Virus record (IMG/VR): IMGVR_UViG_3300021964_010662
Coordinates: 1 to 21,184 of that record
Length of the DNA: 21,184 bases
From: a virus
Reading direction: 5' to 3' (one strand)
A program made the translations under genes and the position numbers. Below, one piece after another: positions 12,328 through 21,184 of this stretch. Each line of letters begins with the position of its first letter. The first letter of the stretch is position 1. The notes beneath the pieces were generated by a model. The model saw only the letters and a program-made list of their open reading frames with translations. It made no database searches and was not told the origin of the DNA.

Positions 12328-12863
12328 ATATTTTTATCCTTGATCGCGATCCAAAAATCGCTGCGCAAATGCAATGTGACAAACATGTAGTTAAAATGAT
12401 TGTTGAGTGCAGTCAAATGCTATCAGCTGTATTAGATAGTAATAGTACTACTAAGTATGGTATTAAGCCTTCAGAGCAATTTAATACATCAGGTTACCCG
12501 CCTGCTCATATTAAGCATCCATGTACATTATGGGCTATGGAATCGTTAGGTAACTATAAATGGCTTGTAAATCATATGCGTGGGTTATGTGTTGAGTATT
12601 CTAGACGTTATAATAAAGTACATTCCTTAGAAGGTCTACTAATGATCTATGAAGGTCAAATTCCTAATTTAAAATTTGCAAAGGATAAACGTACAGCGTT
12701 TGTTCAAGCTATGCCTGAAAAATATAAAGATAAAGATCCTGTAAAAGCATATCATAATTATTATAATATGGATAAGTTTACATTTGCTAAATGGAAAACA
12801 GGAAATGTACCTGATTGGTATACAGGTGCACCGCAATATGTTATTGAATTGGAAGCTGCATGA
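12324..12863 (+). CDS. conserved-type phage protein, function unknown (CDKHVVKM family)
   Basis: A 179-residue protein starting at TTG 12324, set by GGAGG at 12313-12317. It has the arrangement 'MNIFILDRDPKIAAQMQCDKHVVKM', 'HPCTLWAMESLGNYKWL', 'TAFVQAMPEKYK', 'AYHNYYNMDKFTFAKWKTGNVPDWY', which I have seen in many marine phage proteins of unknown function. C18, H21 and H90-C92 are candidate metal or catalytic residues but cannot be proved. It immediately precedes queD (ATGA overlap), so it may be co-expressed with the deazaguanine genes. Confidence 0.78.
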   Translation: MNIFILDRDPKIAAQMQCDKHVVKMIVECSQMLSAVLDSNSTTKYGIKPSEQFNTSGYPPAHIKHPCTLWAMESLGNYKWLVNHMRGLCVEYSRRYNKVHSLEGLLMIYEGQIPNLKFAKDKRTAFVQAMPEKYKDKDPVKAYHNYYNMDKFTFAKWKTGNVPDWYTGAPQYVIELEAA

Positions 12864-13306
12864 AATATTTCTCTACTAAAACTTATGGACATGAAAGGGG
12901 TTTAAGCTGTGCATTCAGACAACCTAACGCATCACATTCACACTGCTCTTTGTTACATGGATACGCTCTTGCATTCACCTTTGTATTTGGATGTAATGAA
13001 TTGGACGATAAAAATTGGGTGGTAGATTTTGGAGGTCTTAAAGATCTTAAAGATTGGCTTGAAGAACAATTTGATCACACTGTAGCTGTTGACTCTTCTG
13101 ATCCTATGATTGATATGCTCAGACAATTATATCATTGGAATTTAGCTGACATTAGAGTTATGAATGGAGTAGGTTGTGAGAAGTTTGCTCAACACGCTTT
13201 CGAATATTCTAATAAACTTATTAAAGAACAAACTAACAATCGTTGTTGGGTTGAATCTGTAGAAGTAAAAGAGCATGGCGCAAACAGTGCAATCGTCAGA
13301 AAATAA
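12860..13306 (+). CDS. queD: QueD, 6-carboxy-5,6,7,8-tetrahydropterin synthase
   Basis: QueD converts 7,8-dihydroneopterin triphosphate (from FolE) to 6-carboxytetrahydropterin, the second step to preQ0. In this 148-residue protein 'HSHCSLLHGYAL' (26-37) holds the catalytic Cys (C29) and His ligands; 'WVVDFGGLKDLKDWLE' (53-68), 'FDHTV' (71-75) and 'VEVKEHGANSA' near the C-terminus are characteristic. The usual HGH is HGY here, a variant I recall from a QueD-like subgroup with the same DFGGLK and EHGANSA motifs, so activity is still likely. ATGA overlap with the gene before; 32-bp overlap with the one after. Confidence 0.92.
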   Translation: MKYFSTKTYGHERGLSCAFRQPNASHSHCSLLHGYALAFTFVFGCNELDDKNWVVDFGGLKDLKDWLEEQFDHTVAVDSSDPMIDMLRQLYHWNLADIRVMNGVGCEKFAQHAFEYSNKLIKEQTNNRCWVESVEVKEHGANSAIVRK

Positions 13307-13544
13307 TATAATCCGATTAGGTGAGCTTATAGAACATAAGCTTCGTAAAGAAAAAGAGTTAGATTTTTACCGCGAGCAGCTACAAGAGCTTACTGAAAAA
13401 ATTATGACTCTACAAAAAGATGTAGATCTTACAAAGTTAATTATTAATATAATCACATCAGAGACTGTTGTGGATATTAAAGAGCAAGTAGAAAAATCTA
13501 TCCCAATTATAGGAGATAAAAGTGGAACCAATAGATCCAAGTAA
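13275..13544 (+). CDS. small coiled-coil protein
   Basis: An 89-residue protein beginning inside the queD end (ATG 13275). The centre (LGELIEHKLRKEKELDFYREQLQELTEKIMTL..., residues 15-50) has heptads of a coiled coil, and the tail is polar. No signal or membrane helix. It overlaps the following small membrane-protein gene by 23 bp. Function unknown; the evidence is operon position and open frame. Confidence 0.6.
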   Translation: MAQTVQSSENNIIRLGELIEHKLRKEKELDFYREQLQELTEKIMTLQKDVDLTKLIINIITSETVVDIKEQVEKSIPIIGDKSGTNRSK

Positions 13545-13680
13545 AAAACATTTTTATATTAGTATAATTAAAAGTATAGTTAGAATTGTTGCAGGTGTTT
13601 ATCTTTTTTATGGTAATTATGCTGTAGCAGGTTCACTGTTTATCGCAGCAGAAATATTAGGAGTTATTGAAGAATTATGA
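13522..13680 (+). CDS. small single-pass or hairpin membrane protein (GTG start)
   Basis: A 52-residue ORF from GTG 13522, with AGGAGA at 13511-13516, to TGA 13678-13680, overlapping queE's ATG (ATGA). After a polar N-terminus (MEPIDPSKKH) it has hydrophobic stretches 'FYISIIKSIVRIVAGVYLFY' and 'AVAGSLFIAAEILGVIEEL', consistent with one or two membrane helices. I believe comparable short membrane proteins occur in other T4-like phages. Good ribosome site and coupling to queE support it. Function unknown. Confidence 0.72.
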   Translation: MEPIDPSKKHFYISIIKSIVRIVAGVYLFYGNYAVAGSLFIAAEILGVIEEL

Positions 13681-14576
13681 GTGAAGCAAAATATTACTAT
13701 TCAGAAGTTTTTTCATCTATTCAAGGTGAAGGAGCGTATACAGGTCAACATACACTTTGGTTACGCTATTTTTTATGTAACTTACAATGTAACGGTTTTG
13801 GTCAAATAGACCCTACAAACCCTGAAACATATGAGTTGCCTTATGAAGATTTTGACGTTTCTACGGTTAGCAAAGTAGAAGAACTACCTGTATGGGATAA
13901 GGGATGTGATAGTTCTTATACCTGGGCTAAAAAATATAAACATTTAATGGGTCACAGAACCCCTGAAGAGCTAGTACAAACTATCATGTATTACAATTCA
14001 AATGAATTAAATTTAAGCGGGCAGTTTTTACATCCAAGAAGTGGTCAAAGAGCTCATATGTGTTTTACAGGTGGTGAACCTTTAATGCCATCATCACAAA
14101 AATGCTCTACTGAAATTCTTAAAATTTTTAAAAACTCTAAAAACGAACCAGGCGGTGTAACATTTGAAACTAATGGTACAAAAAAGCTAATTAAAGAATT
14201 AAAAGATTTTATGGCAGAAGATAGAGACTGGCAGTTGTTCTGGTCTGTTTCACCTAAATTATGGACAGTAGCGGGTGAAAAACCAGAAAAAGCTATTAAA
14301 CCTGATGTAGTAAAAGAATATATGGAAGTATCAGATAATGGACAGTTAAAATTTGTCATGGGGCTAGAAAAAAAACAATGGCAAGAGTTGGAAAATGTTA
14401 TTAATGAATACCGCAAAGTAGGTATTGATTGGCCAGTATATATTATGCCTGTTGGCGCAACTCTTGAAGGTCAAGATGAAATTGCTAAAAACGTAGCATG
14501 GGAAGCTCTTAAGAGAGGATATAATGTATCAGCTAGAGCTCATGTTTATCTTTTTGGTAACGCTATCGGAACCTAA
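13677..14576 (+). CDS. queE: QueE, 7-carboxy-7-deazaguanine synthase (radical SAM) with split Cys motif
   Basis: QueE is the radical-SAM enzyme that makes 7-carboxy-7-deazaguanine from 6-carboxytetrahydropterin. QueE landmarks: 'SSIQGEGAYTG' (13-23), 'WLRYFLCNLQC' (28-38), 'CDSSYTWA' (77-84), 'CFTGGEPLMP' (SAM-binding GGE), 'TFETNGT' and 'WSVSPKL'. The three cluster cysteines are C34, C38 and C77: CX3C is kept, but the third Cys, normally two residues later in 'CXXCDT', comes after a 38-residue spacer with an acidic stretch (PTNPETYELPYEDFD). The rest of the motif after the insertion (CDSSYTW) is intact, so I read it as a functional enzyme with an insertion rather than decay. 299 residues is longer than typical QueE (about 210-250). 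Confidence 0.93.
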   Translation: MSEAKYYYSEVFSSIQGEGAYTGQHTLWLRYFLCNLQCNGFGQIDPTNPETYELPYEDFDVSTVSKVEELPVWDKGCDSSYTWAKKYKHLMGHRTPEELVQTIMYYNSNELNLSGQFLHPRSGQRAHMCFTGGEPLMPSSQKCSTEILKIFKNSKNEPGGVTFETNGTKKLIKELKDFMAEDRDWQLFWSVSPKLWTVAGEKPEKAIKPDVVKEYMEVSDNGQLKFVMGLEKKQWQELENVINEYRKVGIDWPVYIMPVGATLEGQDEIAKNVAWEALKRGYNVSARAHVYLFGNAIGT

Positions 14577-14578
14577 TA

Positions 14579-14713
14579 ATGAAAATTGTTATAATGATAA
14601 TGTCTTGTATAACCCTTAGTGGTTGTATGCATACAGTAGAGGTTACTGCGGAGTTCTATAAGAAATGTTTTTCAAGAACAGACAACAGCTGCTATACATT
14701 ATTACATGGTTAA
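14579..14713 (+). CDS. small predicted lipoprotein
   Basis: A 44-residue ORF, too short for many gene finders: ATG 14579 to TAA 14711-14713. The N-terminus MKIVIMIMSCITLSGC is a short signal with lipobox LSGC (C16 as the lipidated Cys), leaving a 29-residue mature peptide with two more Cys. GGA at 14568-14570 is a weak ribosome site. It overlaps the next gene by 49 bp in another frame. The overlap recalls spanin gene pairs, but the order (lipoprotein first) is reversed. Confidence is moderate because the ORF is so short. Confidence 0.5.
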   Translation: MKIVIMIMSCITLSGCMHTVEVTAEFYKKCFSRTDNSCYTLLHG

Positions 14714-14997
14714 GTACTATTTGGATGAGTTCTTTCTTGGCTGGTTTTGCTTTTGGTCAAGATTGTACATTAACAACAGTAGTTAATTATAACGATAATG
14801 GAAGCATCGTAAATTCAACACAAAAATACGTGTGTAAAACACCTCCGCCTCCTCCTACTATTATTGTAGCAGAAACAAAGTTAACTAATGCAGAACCTAA
14901 TGTGATGTATGGTTATAATGGAAGAGTATATCCGCCAGTGTCTGATAAAGATATTATGAACGGATTATCTTTATTGAGTCTATTTTTTAGCAACTAG
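14665..14997 (+). CDS. exported or membrane-anchored protein with Pro run
   Basis: A 110-residue protein. Residues 9-30 (LLYIITWLSTIWMSSFLAGFAF) form a signal anchor or signal peptide, with possible cleavage before QDC. The exported part has two cysteines (C34, C57) that could form a disulfide, a five-proline run (60-64) and a hydrophobic C-terminus (LSLLSLFF). GGAG at 14650-14653 precedes ATG 14665. Function unknown. Periplasmic location behind a lipoprotein and before another suggests a cell-envelope role such as superinfection exclusion or lysis help; this is inference. Confidence 0.68.
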   Translation: MFFKNRQQLLYIITWLSTIWMSSFLAGFAFGQDCTLTTVVNYNDNGSIVNSTQKYVCKTPPPPPTIIVAETKLTNAEPNVMYGYNGRVYPPVSDKDIMNGLSLLSLFFSN

Positions 14998-15006
14998 GAG
15001 TAAATT

Positions 15007-15642
15007 ATGAAAAATATCGTTCTACTAGCGTCTTGTGCTCTGGTACTTGGAGCTTGTTCATCTAGCCCTTCAACTAATATGGCGATCACAGATCCTATTA
15101 AGTATAAAACTTTGAAGGTTGAAACACAAGTTAATCTTATCCCTGACTGGTATCTTAACTACCCGAAAGATGAAAATACTATCTATTCATCAGGTACAGC
15201 TGTAACACCAGATCTTCAGTTAGCTATGGATATTGCAGTGCTTAATGCAAAGACTACTCTAGCAGATCGAATTAACGGTCGCTTATCTTCGAAGACTAAA
15301 AGCTTTATCGCTAAAATCGGTTCAACTGATTTAGACGCTGAAGTGTCTCAAGATATTGAGCGTGTAACAACGAATCTAATCGCAGATGTAGATGTAGCTG
15401 GCTATGCTGTACAACAATCTAAAATAGTACAAGATGGACCTCAGTTCAGAGCTTTTGTTTTGCTAGCCTATTCTGATGCAGAAGCGAATAAGATTCTACT
15501 TAATCGTCTACGTAAAGAAAAGATGCTCTTCGACAAACTTAAAGCTACTAACGCTTATAAAGATCTAGAAGAAAGCGTCGATAAGCATAAGCAACAAGAG
15601 ATGGACGAGATGAAAATTATTATTGAAGGAATTAATAGTTAA
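15007..15642 (+). CDS. lipoprotein, LPP20-like
   Basis: A 211-residue lipoprotein: signal MKNIVLLASCALVLGAC with lipobox LGAC and C17 as the lipidation site, then a Ser/Thr linker. 'LIPDWYLNYPKDENTIYSSGTAV' and the following 'AMDIAVLNAKTTLADRINGRLSSKT' resemble LPP20-family lipoproteins (PDWY...IYxxG motif followed by an amphipathic helix). The C-terminal 50 residues are a charged helix. TAGGAG at about 14995-15000 precedes ATG 15007; the stop overlaps folE (TAATG). It is probably in the periplasmic face of a host membrane; its role in infection is unknown. Confidence 0.8.
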   Translation: MKNIVLLASCALVLGACSSSPSTNMAITDPIKYKTLKVETQVNLIPDWYLNYPKDENTIYSSGTAVTPDLQLAMDIAVLNAKTTLADRINGRLSSKTKSFIAKIGSTDLDAEVSQDIERVTTNLIADVDVAGYAVQQSKIVQDGPQFRAFVLLAYSDAEANKILLNRLRKEKMLFDKLKATNAYKDLEESVDKHKQQEMDEMKIIIEGINS

Positions 15643-16337
15643 TGAGTGTAAGAGTATCTGATAGAATTATGGAAAAAATGTCCTCAGACGGTAAACGTTT
15701 TTGGGCAGGGGATAATATCTCTGAATATATGAGCGATACTACTAAAGAAGCTCTTATTGAAGAAGCTACTATTGCTTTTGAGAACGTTCTTGATGCATTG
15801 CTTATCGATAGAGAGAATGATCCTAACTCTATGGGAACTGCTCGACGGCTAGCTAAGATGTACTATAATGAGATTATGGCTGGTCGTTATGAGAATATGC
15901 CTAATGCTACTGCTTTTCCTAATGATGGTGATGATGCTTATAAAGGTATGTTGGTTGTTCGTTCAGAACTTAAGTCGATGTGCTCGCATCATCATCAGCC
16001 TGTTAGAGGTGTAGCTTATATTGGTATTATTCCAGGAGATAAAGTTATTGGTCTCTCTAAATATACGAGAATTGCTCAGTGGTGTGCTCGTAGAGGTACG
16101 TTACAAGAAGAGTTGTGTAATGATATTGCTAAAGAGATTCAAAAAGCTACTGGCACTGATAATGTAGCTGTATACATTCAAGCAACTCATGGTTGTTGTG
16201 AGAATAGAGGTATTGGAGCGCATAGCTCTCTTACTCAAACTGCTGTCCTTAAGGGACATTTTTTAGACGATAAAATGACTACGAAGAAAGAGTTCTTCGA
16301 TCATATTAAACTTCAACAAGAATTTGCACCAAGATAA
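15642..16337 (+). CDS. folE: FolE, GTP cyclohydrolase I
   Basis: FolE opens GTP to 7,8-dihydroneopterin triphosphate, the entry step to both folate and 7-deazaguanines. This 231-residue protein has the zinc site C114-S-H116-H117 ('SMCSHHHQP') and C185 in 'ATHGCCENRG', the core 'VIGLSKYTRIAQWCARRGTLQEEL' (136-158) and 'AYIGIIP' (125-131). The N-terminal helical part (1-100) is of normal length. It overlaps the lipoprotein stop by one base and precedes the YhhQ-like transporter. With queD, queE and queC in this window it supplies preQ0. Confidence 0.95.
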   Translation: MSVRVSDRIMEKMSSDGKRFWAGDNISEYMSDTTKEALIEEATIAFENVLDALLIDRENDPNSMGTARRLAKMYYNEIMAGRYENMPNATAFPNDGDDAYKGMLVVRSELKSMCSHHHQPVRGVAYIGIIPGDKVIGLSKYTRIAQWCARRGTLQEELCNDIAKEIQKATGTDNVAVYIQATHGCCENRGIGAHSSLTQTAVLKGHFLDDKMTTKKEFFDHIKLQQEFAPR

Positions 16338-16347
16338 GGAGAATATT

Positions 16348-16950
16348 ATGTTGAAAGAATGGTTTAATCTCGAAGATGTTGATAGTGCTTTGCTTTATAA
16401 GCTTGTTGCTTTACATCTTGTTATTATCGCTGCATCGAATTATATCGTGCAGTTTAGTGGTACTATTTTTGGTTATCACTTTACGTGGGCAATGTTTGTT
16501 TTCCCACTTGTAGTTATTGCTACTGATTTGACTGTACGTCTTACTAATAAGTATCAAGCTCGTTCTGTTGTAGCATTAGCGTTTCCTCCTGCTATTGTTA
16601 TTAGCGCAATGTTAGCTGATTGGCGTATTGGTTTTGCAAGTGCATTAGCTTATTTGATTGGACAGTTATTTGATGTCTCTGTCTTTCAGCGTATTAGAGA
16701 AAAATATGATACATGGTGGATTGCTCCTGCTATTTCTACTGTTGTCGCTAACATTGTAGACACATATCTATTCTTCTACGCTGCGTTTAGTAATCATCCT
16801 ACTAACGAGTTTATGGCTGCTAATTGGTTAGAAATTGCTACTGTAGATGTATTCTTTAAGATTGCAACTTCACTGGTTTTATTCTTACCAATCTACGGTG
16901 TGCTTCTATCACACCTTAAAAGAAAAATGAACGTTAGTTCTATTGGATAA
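16348..16950 (+). CDS. yhhQ: YhhQ-type preQ0 transporter (VUT family)
   Basis: A 200-residue membrane protein of the VUT/DUF165 family; E. coli YhhQ imports preQ0. Family signatures: 'FPLVVIATDLTVRL' (52-65), 'FASALAYLIGQLFDVSVFQRIR' (97-118), 'WWIAPAISTVVANIVDTYLFF' (123-143) and 'DVFFKIATSLVLFLPIYGVLL' (167-187), about six membrane helices. ATG 16348 follows AAGGAG 16336-16341. The adjacent deazaguanine genes fit import of preQ0 by the infected cell, supplementing synthesis. The specific substrate is inferred from family and context. A terminator follows 8 bp after the stop. Confidence 0.92.
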   Translation: MLKEWFNLEDVDSALLYKLVALHLVIIAASNYIVQFSGTIFGYHFTWAMFVFPLVVIATDLTVRLTNKYQARSVVALAFPPAIVISAMLADWRIGFASALAYLIGQLFDVSVFQRIREKYDTWWIAPAISTVVANIVDTYLFFYAAFSNHPTNEFMAANWLEIATVDVFFKIATSLVLFLPIYGVLLSHLKRKMNVSSIG

Positions 16951-16957
16951 AAATATA

Positions 16958-16991
16958 AAGAGTGCCCGTGGGCACTCTTCTTATTCTTTTT
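16958..16991 (+). terminator. intrinsic terminator after yhhQ-like gene
   Basis: AAGAGTGCCC (16958-16967) pairs perfectly with GGGCACTCTT (16970-16979) around a tight loop, and a T-rich run (TTATTCTTTTT) follows through 16991. The T-run includes an A and a C, so read-through to the downstream genes is likely; no separate promoter is obvious after it. Confidence 0.85.
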
Positions 16992-17003
16992 AGGAGTTTT
17001 TTT

Positions 17004-17432
17004 ATGTTTGAATATAGAGTAAAAATAAAGAGAGTTGTCGATGGTGATACTGTTGATGTTGATATTGATCTTGGATTTGGAGTATGGCTTACTAACGAAC
17101 GCGTTCGACTCTATGGAGTTGATACTCCAGAATCTCGCACAAGAGATAAAGTAGAAAAAATTTATGGCTTAGCTGCTAAAGATTTCGTTAAGAAATTCTG
17201 TGATGATAAAGCTGGTATGATTCTTAAAACTAAAACATATGACGCTAAAGGTAAATTTGGACGCATTATGGGTGAGTTGTGGCGCATTACTAATTATGCA
17301 GATAAGTCAGTAAATGAATATCTTATCGAAAAACATCACGCTGTTCCTTATTATGGACAGAGTAAAGATGATATTGAAGAACAGCATCTAAAAAATAGAG
17401 AGGTTTTAAAGTTACATGAAGATAGCGCATGA
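17004..17432 (+). CDS. staphylococcal-nuclease-like (SNase/thermonuclease) protein
   Basis: A 142-residue SNase-fold nuclease. 'KRVVDGDTVDVDI' (9-21) gives D13 and D15; 'VRLYGVDTPES' (34-44) gives R35, D40, T41 and E43; 'KFGRIMGEL' gives R87. This is the catalytic set of the family, in matching numbering to staphylococcal nuclease for R35, D40, E43 and R87. It lacks an N-terminal signal, so it would act in the cytoplasm. ATG 17004 (TAGGAG at 16991-16996) is preferred over an upstream in-frame ATG inside the terminator. It overlaps dpdA by 17 bp. It could degrade host DNA or have a narrower processing role. Confidence 0.92.
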   Translation: MFEYRVKIKRVVDGDTVDVDIDLGFGVWLTNERVRLYGVDTPESRTRDKVEKIYGLAAKDFVKKFCDDKAGMILKTKTYDAKGKFGRIMGELWRITNYADKSVNEYLIEKHHAVPYYGQSKDDIEEQHLKNREVLKLHEDSA

Positions 17433-18198
17433 AGCACCGCTTAGTATCTTTGATAAGGTGCAGGAATTAACTGACTATGATTATTTTCTAGTTCATCTCT
17501 TTGAAGAGAATGAACAGTATCTTGCTAAGGCTCATGAGAGTGTTTCTAAAGGTAGAGAAACTATTTTAGATAACTCTATCTTTGAGCTTGGTACATCTTG
17601 GAACCCAGAAAGGTTTGCTTATTGGGTTAAAGAGATGAATCCTACTTATTATATTGTTCCAGATGTTTTAGATGACCGTGATAAAACTGTAGATTCTTTC
17701 GAGTCTTTTATGAAACAATACCCTGACCTTCCTGGTAAAATTATTGCTGTATCACAAGGTAGTACTTATGAAGAGTTGGTATCATGCTACAACTATTTCA
17801 AGAATGATGAAAGAGTAGATAAGCTTGCTTTATCTTTTAATCATCCTTTCTTCCAAGACTATCCATGGGATGGTAATCAATACCATAAAATGGTTGTTGG
17901 TCGTCAAGATACTCTAGGTAGGATGTTAGAAGAAGGTATTATTAATACAAATAAACCTCATCACTTACTTGGTTGCGGGCTTCCACAAGAGTTTAAAGGC
18001 TATACAGATTATGAATGGATTGATAGTTTAGATACTTCAAATCCAGTCATACATGGTATTAAAGATATATGGTATTCAGCTGATGGATTAAGTGATAAAG
18101 AATCAGTTAAACTTTATACTATGATGAATGATGATGTTAATAAACATTGGGCTGCAATTGAGTATAATATTAAGACATTCAGGAGTTATTGTCGATGA
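17416..18198 (+). CDS. dpdA: DpdA-like DNA guanine transglycosylase
   Basis: A 260-residue TIM-barrel-like protein of the tRNA-guanine-transglycosylase superfamily in the phage DpdA style, which swaps guanine in DNA for a 7-deazaguanine. Motifs: 'LDNSIFELG' (51-59), 'VPDVLDD' (81-87), 'AVSQG' (111-115), 'LALSF' (137-141), 'HLLGCGLP' (183-190) and 'SLDTSNPVIHG' (204-214), where D206 is the likely nucleophile equivalent. Shorter than tRNA TGTs (about 370) and without their zinc cysteine cluster, as expected for phage DpdA. It sits directly before the formyltransferase-like gene, with queF and queC downstream; this context strongly favours DNA modification over tRNA queuosine. Confidence 0.87.
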   Translation: MKIAHEAPLSIFDKVQELTDYDYFLVHLFEENEQYLAKAHESVSKGRETILDNSIFELGTSWNPERFAYWVKEMNPTYYIVPDVLDDRDKTVDSFESFMKQYPDLPGKIIAVSQGSTYEELVSCYNYFKNDERVDKLALSFNHPFFQDYPWDGNQYHKMVVGRQDTLGRMLEEGIINTNKPHHLLGCGLPQEFKGYTDYEWIDSLDTSNPVIHGIKDIWYSADGLSDKESVKLYTMMNDDVNKHWAAIEYNIKTFRSYCR

Positions 18199-18677
18199 AA
18201 TGGGTAGCTTTGTTTTCTCAAACAGGCTCTGAAATTAAAACTCTGTCAGGTATTCTTGACAGAGTTCCTAGTATGGTATTAACTAATAATAAGAAGTACA
18301 CAGGTGATTTAAATCCGTACATAGCAGATCATAATACACTTATGAAATATCTTATAGATAATCATAAAGATGATCTTATTACTCTTCATGGCTATCTGAG
18401 AATCATTCCAGAAGAAGTATGTAAGGAATGTAAAAATATCTATAACGGTCATCCTGGACTCATTAACGTATACCCTGAGTTAAGAGGTAAAGATCCTCAA
18501 GAGAGAATTAAACCATATATGAATCTTATAGGGTCAGTTGTACATAAAGTTATACCAGAAGTAGACGCTGGTGATATAGTTTCTAATATTGCTGTTAAAA
18601 ATACTAGCGGAAATTACTATAATAAACTTAGAGAAACATCTTTAGAAGCATGGGAGCAATTCTTTGAAAAGTATTAG
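18195..18677 (+). CDS. dpdN: formyltransferase-fold protein, likely dPreQ1 formyltransferase (DpdN-like)
   Basis: A 160-residue protein with the formyltransferase fold of PurN: 'SQTGSEI' (8-14), 'TLHGYLRIIPEEV' (63-75), 'YNGHPGLINVYPELRGKDPQE' starting at 83 (N84 and H86 are the catalytic pair) and 'GSVVHKVIPEVDAGDIV' (113-129; D124 is the catalytic Asp). PurN itself is longer (about 210) and acts on GAR. Adjacency to DpdA and QueF supports the role proposed for the phage protein DpdN: adding a formyl group from N10-formyl-THF to the amine of 7-aminomethyl-7-deazaguanine in DNA. ATG 18195 is set by AGGAG 18181-18185. The fold is well supported; the substrate is inferred. Confidence 0.82.
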   Translation: MKWVALFSQTGSEIKTLSGILDRVPSMVLTNNKKYTGDLNPYIADHNTLMKYLIDNHKDDLITLHGYLRIIPEEVCKECKNIYNGHPGLINVYPELRGKDPQERIKPYMNLIGSVVHKVIPEVDAGDIVSNIAVKNTSGNYYNKLRETSLEAWEQFFEKY

Positions 18678-18915
18678 ACCTAATCACTATCGTGCAGAAC
18701 GCATGGTAGAGTTTGAATGTATTAAAGTTATTGAGGCTTTAACAGAAGATCATCAGAATGATGTCTTTACAGATTATAATCGTTATCAGGCGTTTAAGTA
18801 TCTTTGGCGTCTAGGTAAGAAGGATGATGTGTTGCAGGAGTTATATAAAGCTGCGACATTTATTAATTTTGCTATTGAGAAACTAGAAAAGGATAGAGGA
18901 ATTGCAGATGAATAA
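18664..18915 (+). CDS. DUF3310-family protein
   Basis: An 83-residue protein with 'RPNHYRAERMVEFECIKVIEAL' and 'YQAFKYLWRLGKKDDVLQELYKAATFINFAIEKL', the typical DUF3310 pattern (NHY...C.d.ie.....f...NaiKYlwRag.Kd....DL.Kak.yl). Function is unknown although it is common in phages, sometimes linked to nucleotide metabolism. The start is TTG 18664 with GGGAG at about 18651-18655; the gene overlaps the formyltransferase stop by 14 bp and queF by 8 bp. It is in the middle of the deazaguanine operon. Confidence 0.85.
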   Translation: MKSIRPNHYRAERMVEFECIKVIEALTEDHQNDVFTDYNRYQAFKYLWRLGKKDDVLQELYKAATFINFAIEKLEKDRGIADE

Positions 18916-19822
18916 AATTGAAGATATTGCTAGTCAGCATTTAGGTCGTACTTCTGATGGAGCTACGATGACACGTTATGAGACACCTGATGCTGTTGAT
19001 AGCAGCTTATTGGTAGGTATTCCTCGTTACTTGAATAGAGAAGCATATGAAATTACAGATAAAGATTTCGTAGGTACTGATACCTGGCATGCGTTTGAAG
19101 TATCGTTTCTATTAGGCAGCGGTTATCCAGTATCAGGTGTTGTTAAGTATGTTTATGAGTGTGATACACCTAATATTGTAGAGTCGAAGTCTATTAAGCT
19201 GTATCTAAACTCTTATAACATGGCTGTTATGGGTAAGACAGTTAAAGAAGCTACGCAAAGAGCTCTTGATATGATGGAGCGAGACTTAACTGAGGTTATC
19301 GGTGGTCAGGTAAAAGCTTATTTTCATAATAGCGCATTAGGTGATCCTATCAGTGCTGTCTATAATAAGCTAGAAGATCTGGTTGATGTATCTGAACTAT
19401 CTTTTGATAGATATAATGAAGATCCAGATATCTTAGATATTGTGAATCTTGATAAACGTAGTAAAATTACATATACTACAAATGCTCTTCGTTCTAACTG
19501 TCGTGTTACTAATCAACCTGACTGGGGTGATATCTATATCTATATCGAAGGAGATCAGAAACCTACTCCTGAATCGATGCTACAGTATATTGTTAGTATG
19601 CGTAGAGAGAATCACTTTCATGAAGAGATTTGTGAATGTGTGATTAAAAGACTAAAAGTGCTTATGCCTAAATGTGATATCGCTGTCGCGTGTCTATATA
19701 CTCGTAGAGGTGGTATCGATATTAACCCTGTTAGAGGTACTAGTAATCTAGCTATTATTAGAGCTGGGTTTGAAGATCTTCAAAAGGTAGAAGAGCCTCC
19801 TATGAAGACAGCGAGGCAGTAA
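18908..19822 (+). CDS. queF: QueF, NADPH-dependent 7-cyano-7-deazaguanine (preQ0) reductase
   Basis: QueF reduces the nitrile of preQ0 to the aminomethyl group of preQ1. This is the bimodular (E. coli type) form: 304 residues. The NADPH-binding signature ESKSIKLYLNSYN is at 92-104, and the catalytic core is 'RSNCRVTNQPDWGD' (195-208), with C198 as the thioimide-forming Cys and D205 as the acid. 'SMRRENHFHEEICE' (230-243) holds the conserved His-Glu. The intact NADPH motif argues against a QueF-like amidinotransferase (archaeosine type). ATG 18908 is set by TAGAGGA at 18894-18900. It implies that the phage uses preQ1 rather than only preQ0. Confidence 0.94.
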   Translation: MNKIEDIASQHLGRTSDGATMTRYETPDAVDSSLLVGIPRYLNREAYEITDKDFVGTDTWHAFEVSFLLGSGYPVSGVVKYVYECDTPNIVESKSIKLYLNSYNMAVMGKTVKEATQRALDMMERDLTEVIGGQVKAYFHNSALGDPISAVYNKLEDLVDVSELSFDRYNEDPDILDIVNLDKRSKITYTTNALRSNCRVTNQPDWGDIYIYIEGDQKPTPESMLQYIVSMRRENHFHEEICECVIKRLKVLMPKCDIAVACLYTRRGGIDINPVRGTSNLAIIRAGFEDLQKVEEPPMKTARQ

Positions 19823-20646
19823 TGTATGAATCGCATGAAGCTTATATGAAGAGAAGGATAACGCAAGTGGATAAACTACAAGAGATTATTAATCGTTTAC
19901 CTCATACTGATAAAAAAGTCATTGTGACTCATAGTGGTGGAATGGATAGTGCTACTGCTGTTATTATGTGCGCTCATCATTATGGTGCAGATAATGTTAT
20001 CTCTCTTGGATATGATTATGGTCAAAAGCAAAAAGTAGAATTAGAATATGCTCAGCGGCTATGTGATGAGTTAGGAGTAACTAGAAAAGTTTTAGATTTA
20101 TCTATTCTAGGAGATATTGTTAAAAATGTATCTGCTAATATTGCAGGTACAGATGTAGCGATGCCTACTATTAAAGATATTCTAGGTAACCCTCAACCAC
20201 CTACATACGTACCTTTTCGTAATATGATTATGTTCTCTCTTACAGCTGCTTTTGCTGAAGCTAATGCTGCTTCTCATATTGTTTGTGGTTTGCAAGTTCA
20301 TGATGAATATAGCTATTGGGATACTACTCAGAAGTTTGTAGACGGTTTGAATAGCATCTATGATCAGAATAGATCTTGGCCTCTTACTCTTATTGCTCCT
20401 TTCTCTGATCTATCTAAGACAGAAGAAATTAATTTGTTAGAAGAGTTAGGTGAAACTGAGCTGCTAAAACATACTCTTACGTGTTATGATCCAGAGCACA
20501 GAGTAGAATGGGTTAAAGGTTCACCCCATGTACATGGAATTGCTTGTGGTAAATGTCCTTCTTGCTCAGAGCGCATTCAAGCCTTTATGAATAAAGGTAT
20601 GAAAGACCCTATTGAGTATGCGATTGATATTCCTTGGAGACAATAA
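19822..20646 (+). CDS. queC: QueC, 7-cyano-7-deazaguanine (preQ0) synthase
   Basis: QueC turns 7-carboxy-7-deazaguanine into preQ0 using ATP and ammonia. This 274-residue protein has the PP-loop SGGMDSAT at 38-45, 'LGYDYGQKQKVELEYA', 'TYVPFRNMIMFSLTAAFAEA' and 'YSYWDTTQKF', and a C-terminal zinc site C221, C242, C245, C248 ('CGKCPSCSERIQAF'). It is somewhat longer than typical QueC (about 230). ATG 19822 has GAGG at about 19812-19815 and overlaps the queF stop by one base. Its product can feed QueF next door. A free-standing class II amidotransferase gene lies one gene downstream. Confidence 0.95.
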   Translation: MYESHEAYMKRRITQVDKLQEIINRLPHTDKKVIVTHSGGMDSATAVIMCAHHYGADNVISLGYDYGQKQKVELEYAQRLCDELGVTRKVLDLSILGDIVKNVSANIAGTDVAMPTIKDILGNPQPPTYVPFRNMIMFSLTAAFAEANAASHIVCGLQVHDEYSYWDTTQKFVDGLNSIYDQNRSWPLTLIAPFSDLSKTEEINLLEELGETELLKHTLTCYDPEHRVEWVKGSPHVHGIACGKCPSCSERIQAFMNKGMKDPIEYAIDIPWRQ

Positions 20647-20907
20647 ATGGCTTTATATCCTAACTTTACAGATCAAGATGCGTTAATATTAGATAAAGCA
20701 GAACATTTTACTGTTTTTCAAAAACGTGGTAATAGAAGACAGCATTGTTATAAAAAAGAGTTTGCAACTTTACAACTAGCTATGGAAGATGCTGAAACAA
20801 CATATAAAGAATATTCTCATTATGGAGCTATGGTTTATGCTGTAGCTGGTAATAGAGATTGTATGGTAGGAGTATATAGCCATAGAGGTGGGGAGATTTT
20901 TATCTAA
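20647..20907 (+). CDS. small hypothetical protein between queC and the amidotransferase
   Basis: An 86-residue soluble protein, ATG 20647 immediately after the queC stop. Features: 'AEHFTVFQKRGNRRQHCYKKEFATLQLAMEDAETTYKEY' and 'MVYAVAGNRDCMVGVYS', suggesting a small alpha/beta fold with two Cys. It has no catalytic motif that I recognise. The stop overlaps the next start (TAATG), and its last codons carry the GGTGGGGAG ribosome site for that gene. Function unknown. Confidence 0.65.
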   Translation: MALYPNFTDQDALILDKAEHFTVFQKRGNRRQHCYKKEFATLQLAMEDAETTYKEYSHYGAMVYAVAGNRDCMVGVYSHRGGEIFI

Positions 20908-21184
20908 TGTGTGCAATTTTTGGTTCTTATGATCAGAATAAGTTTTATGAATTAATGAGAGTAAATAGTTATAGAGGTTCTTATAGCTACTCTATCTCTT
21001 ATTATGACGGAAAGAGAATGGATGTAGTAGAAAAAGATTTTGGTACAATGCCGGAAAAAGAACTAGAGCCTAATTATTATTATATTGGTCATGTTCAAGC
21101 ACCTACTACAGATAGTAAAGATGTAACATCTATTCATCCTGCTAATGACAGAGGTGATTACTTATGGCATAATGGTATTATCAA
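20907..21184 (+). CDS. class II glutamine amidotransferase domain protein (partial, runs off the right edge)
   Basis: The first 92 residues of an Ntn-type class II glutamine amidotransferase. Cys2 follows the initiator Met ('MCAIFGSYDQ'), giving an N-terminal nucleophile Cys after Met removal. 'RVNSYRGSYSYS' resembles the conserved RG..S region, 'YIGHVQAPT' the GH.R..T motif and 'IHPANDRGDYLWHNGII' the IHPN...LxHNG motif. The domain is that of GlmS, PurF, AsnB and archaeal Gat-QueC fusions. ATG 20907 overlaps the preceding stop (TAATG), with GGTGGGGAG at 20888-20896. Whether a second domain follows cannot be seen. Proximity to queC suggests ammonia supply for nitrile or amidine chemistry on preQ0, or an unrelated transfer. 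Confidence 0.85.
   Translation, partial: MCAIFGSYDQNKFYELMRVNSYRGSYSYSISYYDGKRMDVVEKDFGTMPEKELEPNYYYIGHVQAPTTDSKDVTSIHPANDRGDYLWHNGII

Follow-up and report, generated by a model that had tools for sequence, protein, structure and literature searches.

Which base does a phage place in its DNA when it carries the genes for preQ0 and preQ1 synthesis together with a DpdA-like transglycosylase and a formyltransferase? The question is raised by an incomplete virus record from IMG/VR (IMGVR_UViG_3300021964_010662), of which all 21,184 bases were analysed; this stretch is called the window here. From 12860 to 21184 the window encodes, all on the + strand, QueD, QueE, FolE, YhhQ, the DpdA-like protein, the formyltransferase, QueF, QueC and an amidotransferase (Table 1). 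We consider it likely that these genes form a phage operon for 7-deazaguanine modification of DNA, with 7-(formylaminomethyl)-7-deazaguanine (fdPreQ1) as the predicted product.

Predicted route to a formylated 7-deazaguanine

In the proposed pathway FolE, QueD, QueE and QueC would convert GTP to preQ0, YhhQ may import extra preQ0 or preQ1, and QueF would reduce preQ0 to preQ1. In the phage DNA, guanine would then be replaced with the deazaguanine by a compact transglycosylase of the DpdA3 type. The DpdN-type enzyme would transfer a formyl group, presumably from 10-formyl-tetrahydrofolate, to the aminomethyl nitrogen, either before or after insertion of the base. The resulting fdPreQ1 would probably replace a large part or all of the deoxyguanosine (dG) and would block restriction enzymes.

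The sequence-only reading of the window had already proposed formylated dPreQ1. The presence of FolE, QueD, QueE, QueC, QueF, YhhQ and the formyltransferase, on which it relied, was confirmed by Pfam, PHROG and TIGR matches. The steps from GTP via preQ0 to preQ1, insertion by DpdA and formylation by DpdN are best supported by motifs and synteny, while the final base we infer.

Transglycosylase

The DpdA-like protein gave no Pfam match, a sequence search of solved structures found no tRNA-guanine transglycosylase (TGT), and its only sequence matches were to PHROG families without an assigned function (best 19058). Comparison of the TGT family PF01702 with seven members of the DpdA-like family gave one match, at 0.11. 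Family searches, of the kind that the sequence-only reading had proposed, identified the Que proteins and the formyltransferase. An AlphaFold model built with seven relatives in the alignment had a mean pLDDT of 90, and the 50 best matches listed in a Foldseek search against the PDB were all TGTs (best E value 2.6e-8). Because its fold, modelled at this confidence, matches that of TGTs, the protein is regarded as transglycosylase-like, which agrees with the earlier assignment. The model also matched a protein of Cellulophaga phage phiST in BFVD (TM 0.87); weaker matches there included R9TGF0 of Vibrio phage nt-1 and several phage proteins annotated as queuine transglycosylases.

The key residues of the motifs LDNSIFE (D52), VPDVL (D83), SQG (Q114-G115) and SLDTSNP (D206) were invariant in 107 relatives. 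By our reading of the motifs, which does not involve superposition, D52, D83 and D206 are putative equivalents of the catalytic Asp residues of TGT and Q114-G115 of its QGG motif, and they occur in the expected order. The nearest named relatives are the DpdA of Flavobacterium phage vB_FspM_immuto_2-6A (NC_055915; immuto below), with 50% identity, and the proteins of the Campylobacter CP220/CPt10 group, with 41-42% identity over 99% of the length. The protein thus groups with the transglycosylases of CP220 and CPt10, phages with complete dG replacement, as expected for the DpdA3 subfamily. An hhalign comparison of the DpdA-like profile with the proteins of E. coli (Tgt), 9g, Dp-1, pf16 and KVP40 gave no significant match. 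Ten phage records, mostly 150-177 kb long, were searched over their full length; each contained one DpdA-like copy, and canonical TGT (PF01702) was absent from them.

The occurrence of the gene set in IMG/VR was surveyed by restricted pattern scans, and the best loci were examined in detail. Relatives of the DpdA-like protein were present in at least 521 loci and relatives of the formyltransferase in at least 583. All 82 loci for which DpdA was the sole selection criterion also carried the formyltransferase gene. It was directly adjacent in 80 of them, as the sequence-only reading had described for the window, and in the remaining two a second DpdA copy lay between the two genes. Such conservation of the gene set far exceeds what chance would produce. 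In two loci (L057 and L059) the DpdA-like gene occurs as a tandem duplicate.

Formyltransferase, QueF and amidotransferase

The formyltransferase has a PurN fold, with a profile match to solved PurN at 2.6e-18 and a Foldseek match at 3e-10. Residues N86, H88 and D126 correspond to the Asn-His-Asp triad of PurN and were invariant in 106 relatives. With 39 bits the protein falls short of the PurN cut-off (150 bits), and a function in purine synthesis is therefore unlikely. Among named phages, relatives were found only in the immuto group. The enzyme is best interpreted as a predicted DpdN-type formyltransferase acting on preQ1 or dPreQ1.

QueF has the bimodular architecture of the E. coli enzyme, comprising QueF_N and QueF domains. 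It scored 208 bits with TIGR03138, below the cut-off of 293, and residues C200, D207, H240 and E241 as well as the NADPH motif ESKSIK (94-99) were conserved in 101 relatives. Since the bimodular enzyme has intact motifs, preQ1 is expected before formylation, and the addition of a formyltransferase to a preQ1 pathway points to fdPreQ1.

There are points against the fdPreQ1 reading. The formyltransferase occurs together with QueF except at cut contigs and in a group of short contigs (L015-L018), in which a relative is accompanied by a class II amidotransferase and, in L015 and L017, by QueC; neither DpdA nor QueF was found in the 10-25 kb available for this group. Relatives of the formyltransferase may thus act in other settings too. 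Furthermore, membership of the DpdA3 subfamily is suggested by the nearest relatives and the fold rather than by a tree that resolves every DpdA class. In L015 the gene after the formyltransferase relative encodes a protein of the dATP/dGTP diphosphohydrolase type (PF18909).

The locus could also be explained by Que genes that boost host tRNA queuosine or folate and purine synthesis, with the formyltransferase as a PurN auxiliary gene. A phage PurN family is known (the protein matches PHROG 9240), and some phages have que genes but lack DpdA (PMC6884629). Such a function is very improbable, as the operon always includes a transglycosylase unlike tRNA TGT, canonical TGT is absent from the phage records searched, and the formyltransferase gene goes with that of DpdA.

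The class II amidotransferase bears on the nature of the end product. In the window it is present, as the sequence-only reading stated, and the window stops within its gene; close relatives encode a complete protein of 206-207 amino acids (aa) with PF13522 (1.6e-7 for the full-length L005 member). In each of the four close relatives that were inspected (L005, L019, L020 and L022), the next gene is a small one of a PRA-PH-like pyrophosphohydrolase type, the family being assigned via the L028 member. The amidotransferase gene also comes after QueC in KVP40 and pf16, which both lack the formyltransferase, and the enzyme is therefore not product-specific. For the same reason its candidacy as the maker of dG+ was downgraded. 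It is possibly an ammonia donor for QueC.

An end product that stays at dPreQ1, or is dG+, would agree with the dPreQ1 found in the QueF-bearing phages 6E351A and Dp-1 and with the position of the amidotransferase after QueC. We regard this outcome as unlikely since the formyltransferase is nearly invariant in the clade and retains its triad. The amidotransferase also stands beside QueC in loci that lack the formyltransferase, and it is encoded on its own, unlike the Gat-QueC fusion of 9g.

Gene between formyltransferase and QueF

The predicted fdPreQ1 operon holds one further gene which the sequence-only reading had missed. In all 99 non-redundant loci in which the formyltransferase and QueF come in this order, the gap between them was occupied either by an AAA_28 P-loop kinase (72 loci) or by a DUF3310 protein (27 loci), with no locus having both and none having neither. 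The window belongs to the DUF3310 group. When mapped on the DpdA tree the slot states required five changes, at least four of which were forced by well-supported branches. At the genome level AAA_28 is usually single-copy and located in the slot, and no AAA_28 protein above the cut-off was found in the DUF3310-slot records searched. The control loci of pf16, KVP40, 9g and Dp-1, which have other DpdA types, contained no kinase, DUF3310 or formyltransferase. In the rearranged loci L126 and L129, which have very divergent DpdA-like proteins, the kinase is still directly 3' of the formyltransferase.

Genes of immuto and CP220 that are annotated as thymidylate kinase encode AAA_28 proteins. T7 gp1.7, which phosphorylates dGMP and dTMP (PMC12846349, PMC7693777), carries DUF3310 at its C-terminus (PF11753, 4.5e-23). 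The stand-alone protein of 83 aa lacks the first ~120 N-terminal residues of T7 gp1.7 and is, by its domain, a candidate nucleotide kinase of the gp1.7 type. The replacement of unrelated genes by each other at a fixed slot suggests that nucleotide kinase activity matters to the modification pathway, and the kinship of DUF3310 with a dGMP/dTMP kinase would likewise tie nucleotide phosphorylation to it.

No earlier report of this association came up in a literature search that did not include Cui et al. 2023 or Crippen et al. 2019. The strict association of the slot with a nucleotide-kinase-type gene is apparently unreported and new. It amounts to a strict genomic rule, provides the little-studied stand-alone DUF3310 protein with a concrete context, and makes the question of how whole-genome guanine replacement arises directly testable.

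Route of base insertion

The slot gene may support nucleotide supply or guanine recycling. In a version of our explanation, each base exchange on DNA would release one guanine, which would be returned to GTP for FolE via a phosphoribosyltransferase and the slot kinase, with insertion of the base remaining post-replicative. A phosphoribosyltransferase family was indeed found in 35 of the 107 non-redundant loci, including immuto. However, the window yielded no member of this family, two thirds of the loci show none (many of these are truncated), and T7 gp1.7 is reported for dGMP and dTMP and not for GMP. We hold recycling to be possible, though short of probable.

The slot gene would have another role if the base were built before replication. 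The transglycosylase would then swap the base on dGMP, the formyltransferase would cap the nucleotide, the kinase or DUF3310 protein would phosphorylate the modified dNMP, and the polymerase would insert the modified dGTP. The logic resembles that of T4 hydroxymethylcytosine, for which the modified nucleotide is made before insertion by the polymerase. Such a route is consistent with the occupation of the slot by AAA_28 or DUF3310, one in place of the other, in 99 of 99 loci with four to five switches, with the kinase that also follows DpdA in CP220, a phage with full dG replacement, and with the lack of kinase, DUF3310 and formyltransferase in the KVP40, 9g, Dp-1 and pf16 loci. It also agrees with NTP-pyrophosphohydrolase-like genes at most 6 kb away in 31 of 47 well-flanked loci. 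The pyrophosphohydrolase was downgraded as a sign specific to DpdA3, as pf16 has one and lacks DpdA3.

We nevertheless consider insertion of a pre-formed nucleotide rather unlikely. Crippen et al. 2019 reportedly observed no dADG phosphates in cells infected with a Campylobacter phage. The kinases may just serve dNTP supply, and two distant DpdA3-like phages (L172 and L173) show no kinase nearby. We know of no transglycosylase-made DNA base that is built before replication; if true, this route would be the first, and it would explain complete guanine replacement. Finally, those DpdA systems that have been characterised are described as post-replicative, with DNA as the substrate (PMC12707154).

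PreQ0 synthesis and other genes of the window

The enzymes for preQ0 synthesis deviate in part from their reference families. QueD scored below the cut-off of the NCBIfam QueD model. The cluster cysteines of QueE (C34, C38 and C77) are spaced as CX3C-X38-C instead of CX3CX2C and were invariant in 60 relatives. The third cysteine is displaced by a long insertion; the spacing is CX3C-X7-C in immuto and the standard CX3CX2C in 9g. QueC of the window carries SGGxDS and a zinc-type Cys motif. The zinc-binding cysteines are lacking in QueC of many related loci (L003 2516-3397, L039, L045, others, and immuto), where TNTSYKP...SSSSVER replaces TCY.P...CGxCPSC. YhhQ passed the TIGR00697 cut-off of 50.95 bits and did not reach that of NF008406 (1.2e-58; 198 bits against 252); it was found in 29 of the 171 sequences scanned.

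From FolE (15642) to the window end most neighbouring genes overlap by 1-17 bases, as in a translationally coupled operon. The genes at 13275-13544, 14665-14997, 15007-15642, 16962-17432, 18664-18915 and 20647-20907 are not obvious pathway members. Two of these lie between QueE and FolE (14665-15642): one encodes a small protein whose N-terminus is signal-like, the other (15007-15642) a lipoprotein-like protein, and the pair is kept in 11 loci. The SNase-like gene (16962-17432) sits inside the operon and recurs in 11 loci; in the window, L060, L063, L092 and L096 it stands either close to DpdA or between the formyltransferase and the kinase. Its product could, at a guess, be a nuclease that spares modified DNA.

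Outside the operon, UvsX (53-1132) showed 57-62% identity to its best matches, mostly from T4-like phages, and family searches revealed a DnaB-like helicase and a T4-type RNase H. Judged by these genes the virus is T4-like. A megablast search of the window against phages gave no match. The upstream replication region also contains a CMP-KDO-synthetase-like cytidylyltransferase (PF02348, 1369-2052) and a nucleotidyltransferase-like gene (PF01467, 5174-5764).

Table 1. Genes of the predicted modification operon in the window
Feature	Position	Strand	Evidence
QueD-type 6-carboxytetrahydropterin synthase, 148 aa, phage variant	12860..13306	+	PF01242 3.6e-13; PHROG 2389 6.1e-40
QueE-type radical SAM 7-carboxy-7-deazaguanine synthase, 299 aa	13677..14576	+	PHROG 2076 1.3e-48
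FolE, GTP cyclohydrolase I, 231 aa	15642..16337	+	PF01227 3.6e-39
YhhQ-type preQ0/preQ1 transporter, 208 aa	16324..16950	+	TIGR00697 107.4 bits
SNase-like nuclease	16962..17432	+	PF00565 2e-11
Predicted DpdA3-like DNA-guanine transglycosylase, 260 aa	17416..18198	+	AlphaFold, Foldseek to TGT, relatives
Predicted DpdN-like formyltransferase, 162 aa, PurN fold	18189..18677	+	PF00551 4.2e-9
DUF3310 protein, 83 aa	18664..18915	+	PF11753 3.3e-8, 33.9 bits (cut-off 24)
QueF, bimodular preQ0 reductase, 306 aa	18902..19822	+	PF14819 5.7e-25; PF14489 1e-15
QueC, preQ0 synthase, 274 aa	19822..20646	+	PF06508 9.8e-47
Class II (Ntn) glutamine amidotransferase, cut by window end	20907..21184	+	PHROG 12378 5.2e-16

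Relation to other phage systems

Vibrio phages KVP40 and 6E351A and Pseudomonas phage pf16 share with the window the order FolE, DpdA-type gene, QueF, QueC and amidotransferase. By our reading, the DpdA-type gene is assigned by motifs for pf16 (gp80) and by position for KVP40. KVP40 and pf16 differ from the window in having a larger and different DpdA-type protein (440-459 aa) and in lacking the formyltransferase, slot kinase and DUF3310. The KVP40-like phage 6E351A, which has QueF, a different DpdA and no formyltransferase, contains plain dPreQ1 at 15% of dG (PMC12028318).

In Streptococcus phage Dp-1 the preQ0 set, QueF, DpdA and the queuosine-precursor transporter QueT already occur in one locus, and the core of the window recurs in immuto and in hundreds of IMG/VR loci. 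The claim of the sequence-only reading that the locus is unusually complete is therefore not upheld. Dp-1 differs in its DpdA class and in the lack of a formyltransferase, and its DNA contains dPreQ1 at 1.7% of G (PMC6884629).

The Campylobacter phages CP220 and CPt10 (Firehammervirus) have a DpdA-like protein (41-42% identity) followed by an AAA_28 kinase, and 100% of their dG is replaced by dADG (PMC8306585). In contrast to the window, CP220 has no QueF and no formyltransferase, which fits its non-preQ1 product, and its que genes are scattered.

Phage immuto has the same order of QueD, QueE, FolE, DpdA, formyltransferase, slot gene and QueF, with 50% identity for DpdA and 37% for the formyltransferase. 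Its slot is occupied by an AAA_28 kinase instead of DUF3310, its QueC lies elsewhere and lacks the zinc cysteines, and it has a phosphoribosyltransferase and a pyrophosphohydrolase-like gene. Neither YhhQ nor the amidotransferase was found in the 37 kb of immuto that were fetched.

The chemistry of fdPreQ1 has been described before, and the locus is neither rare nor uniquely complete. The present results widen the predicted range of this recently described DNA modification to many T4-like phages from the environment, with at least 521 IMG/VR loci in a restricted search. Cui et al. 2023 reportedly described fdPreQ1, DpdN and the DpdA3 subfamily, a full-replacement class. That system reportedly likewise combines a DpdA3-like enzyme, QueF and a PurN-fold formyltransferase. 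The DpdA of the window, with 260 aa, shares only 50% identity with the closest named protein, and to the operon of the described system the window adds YhhQ, the amidotransferase and DUF3310.

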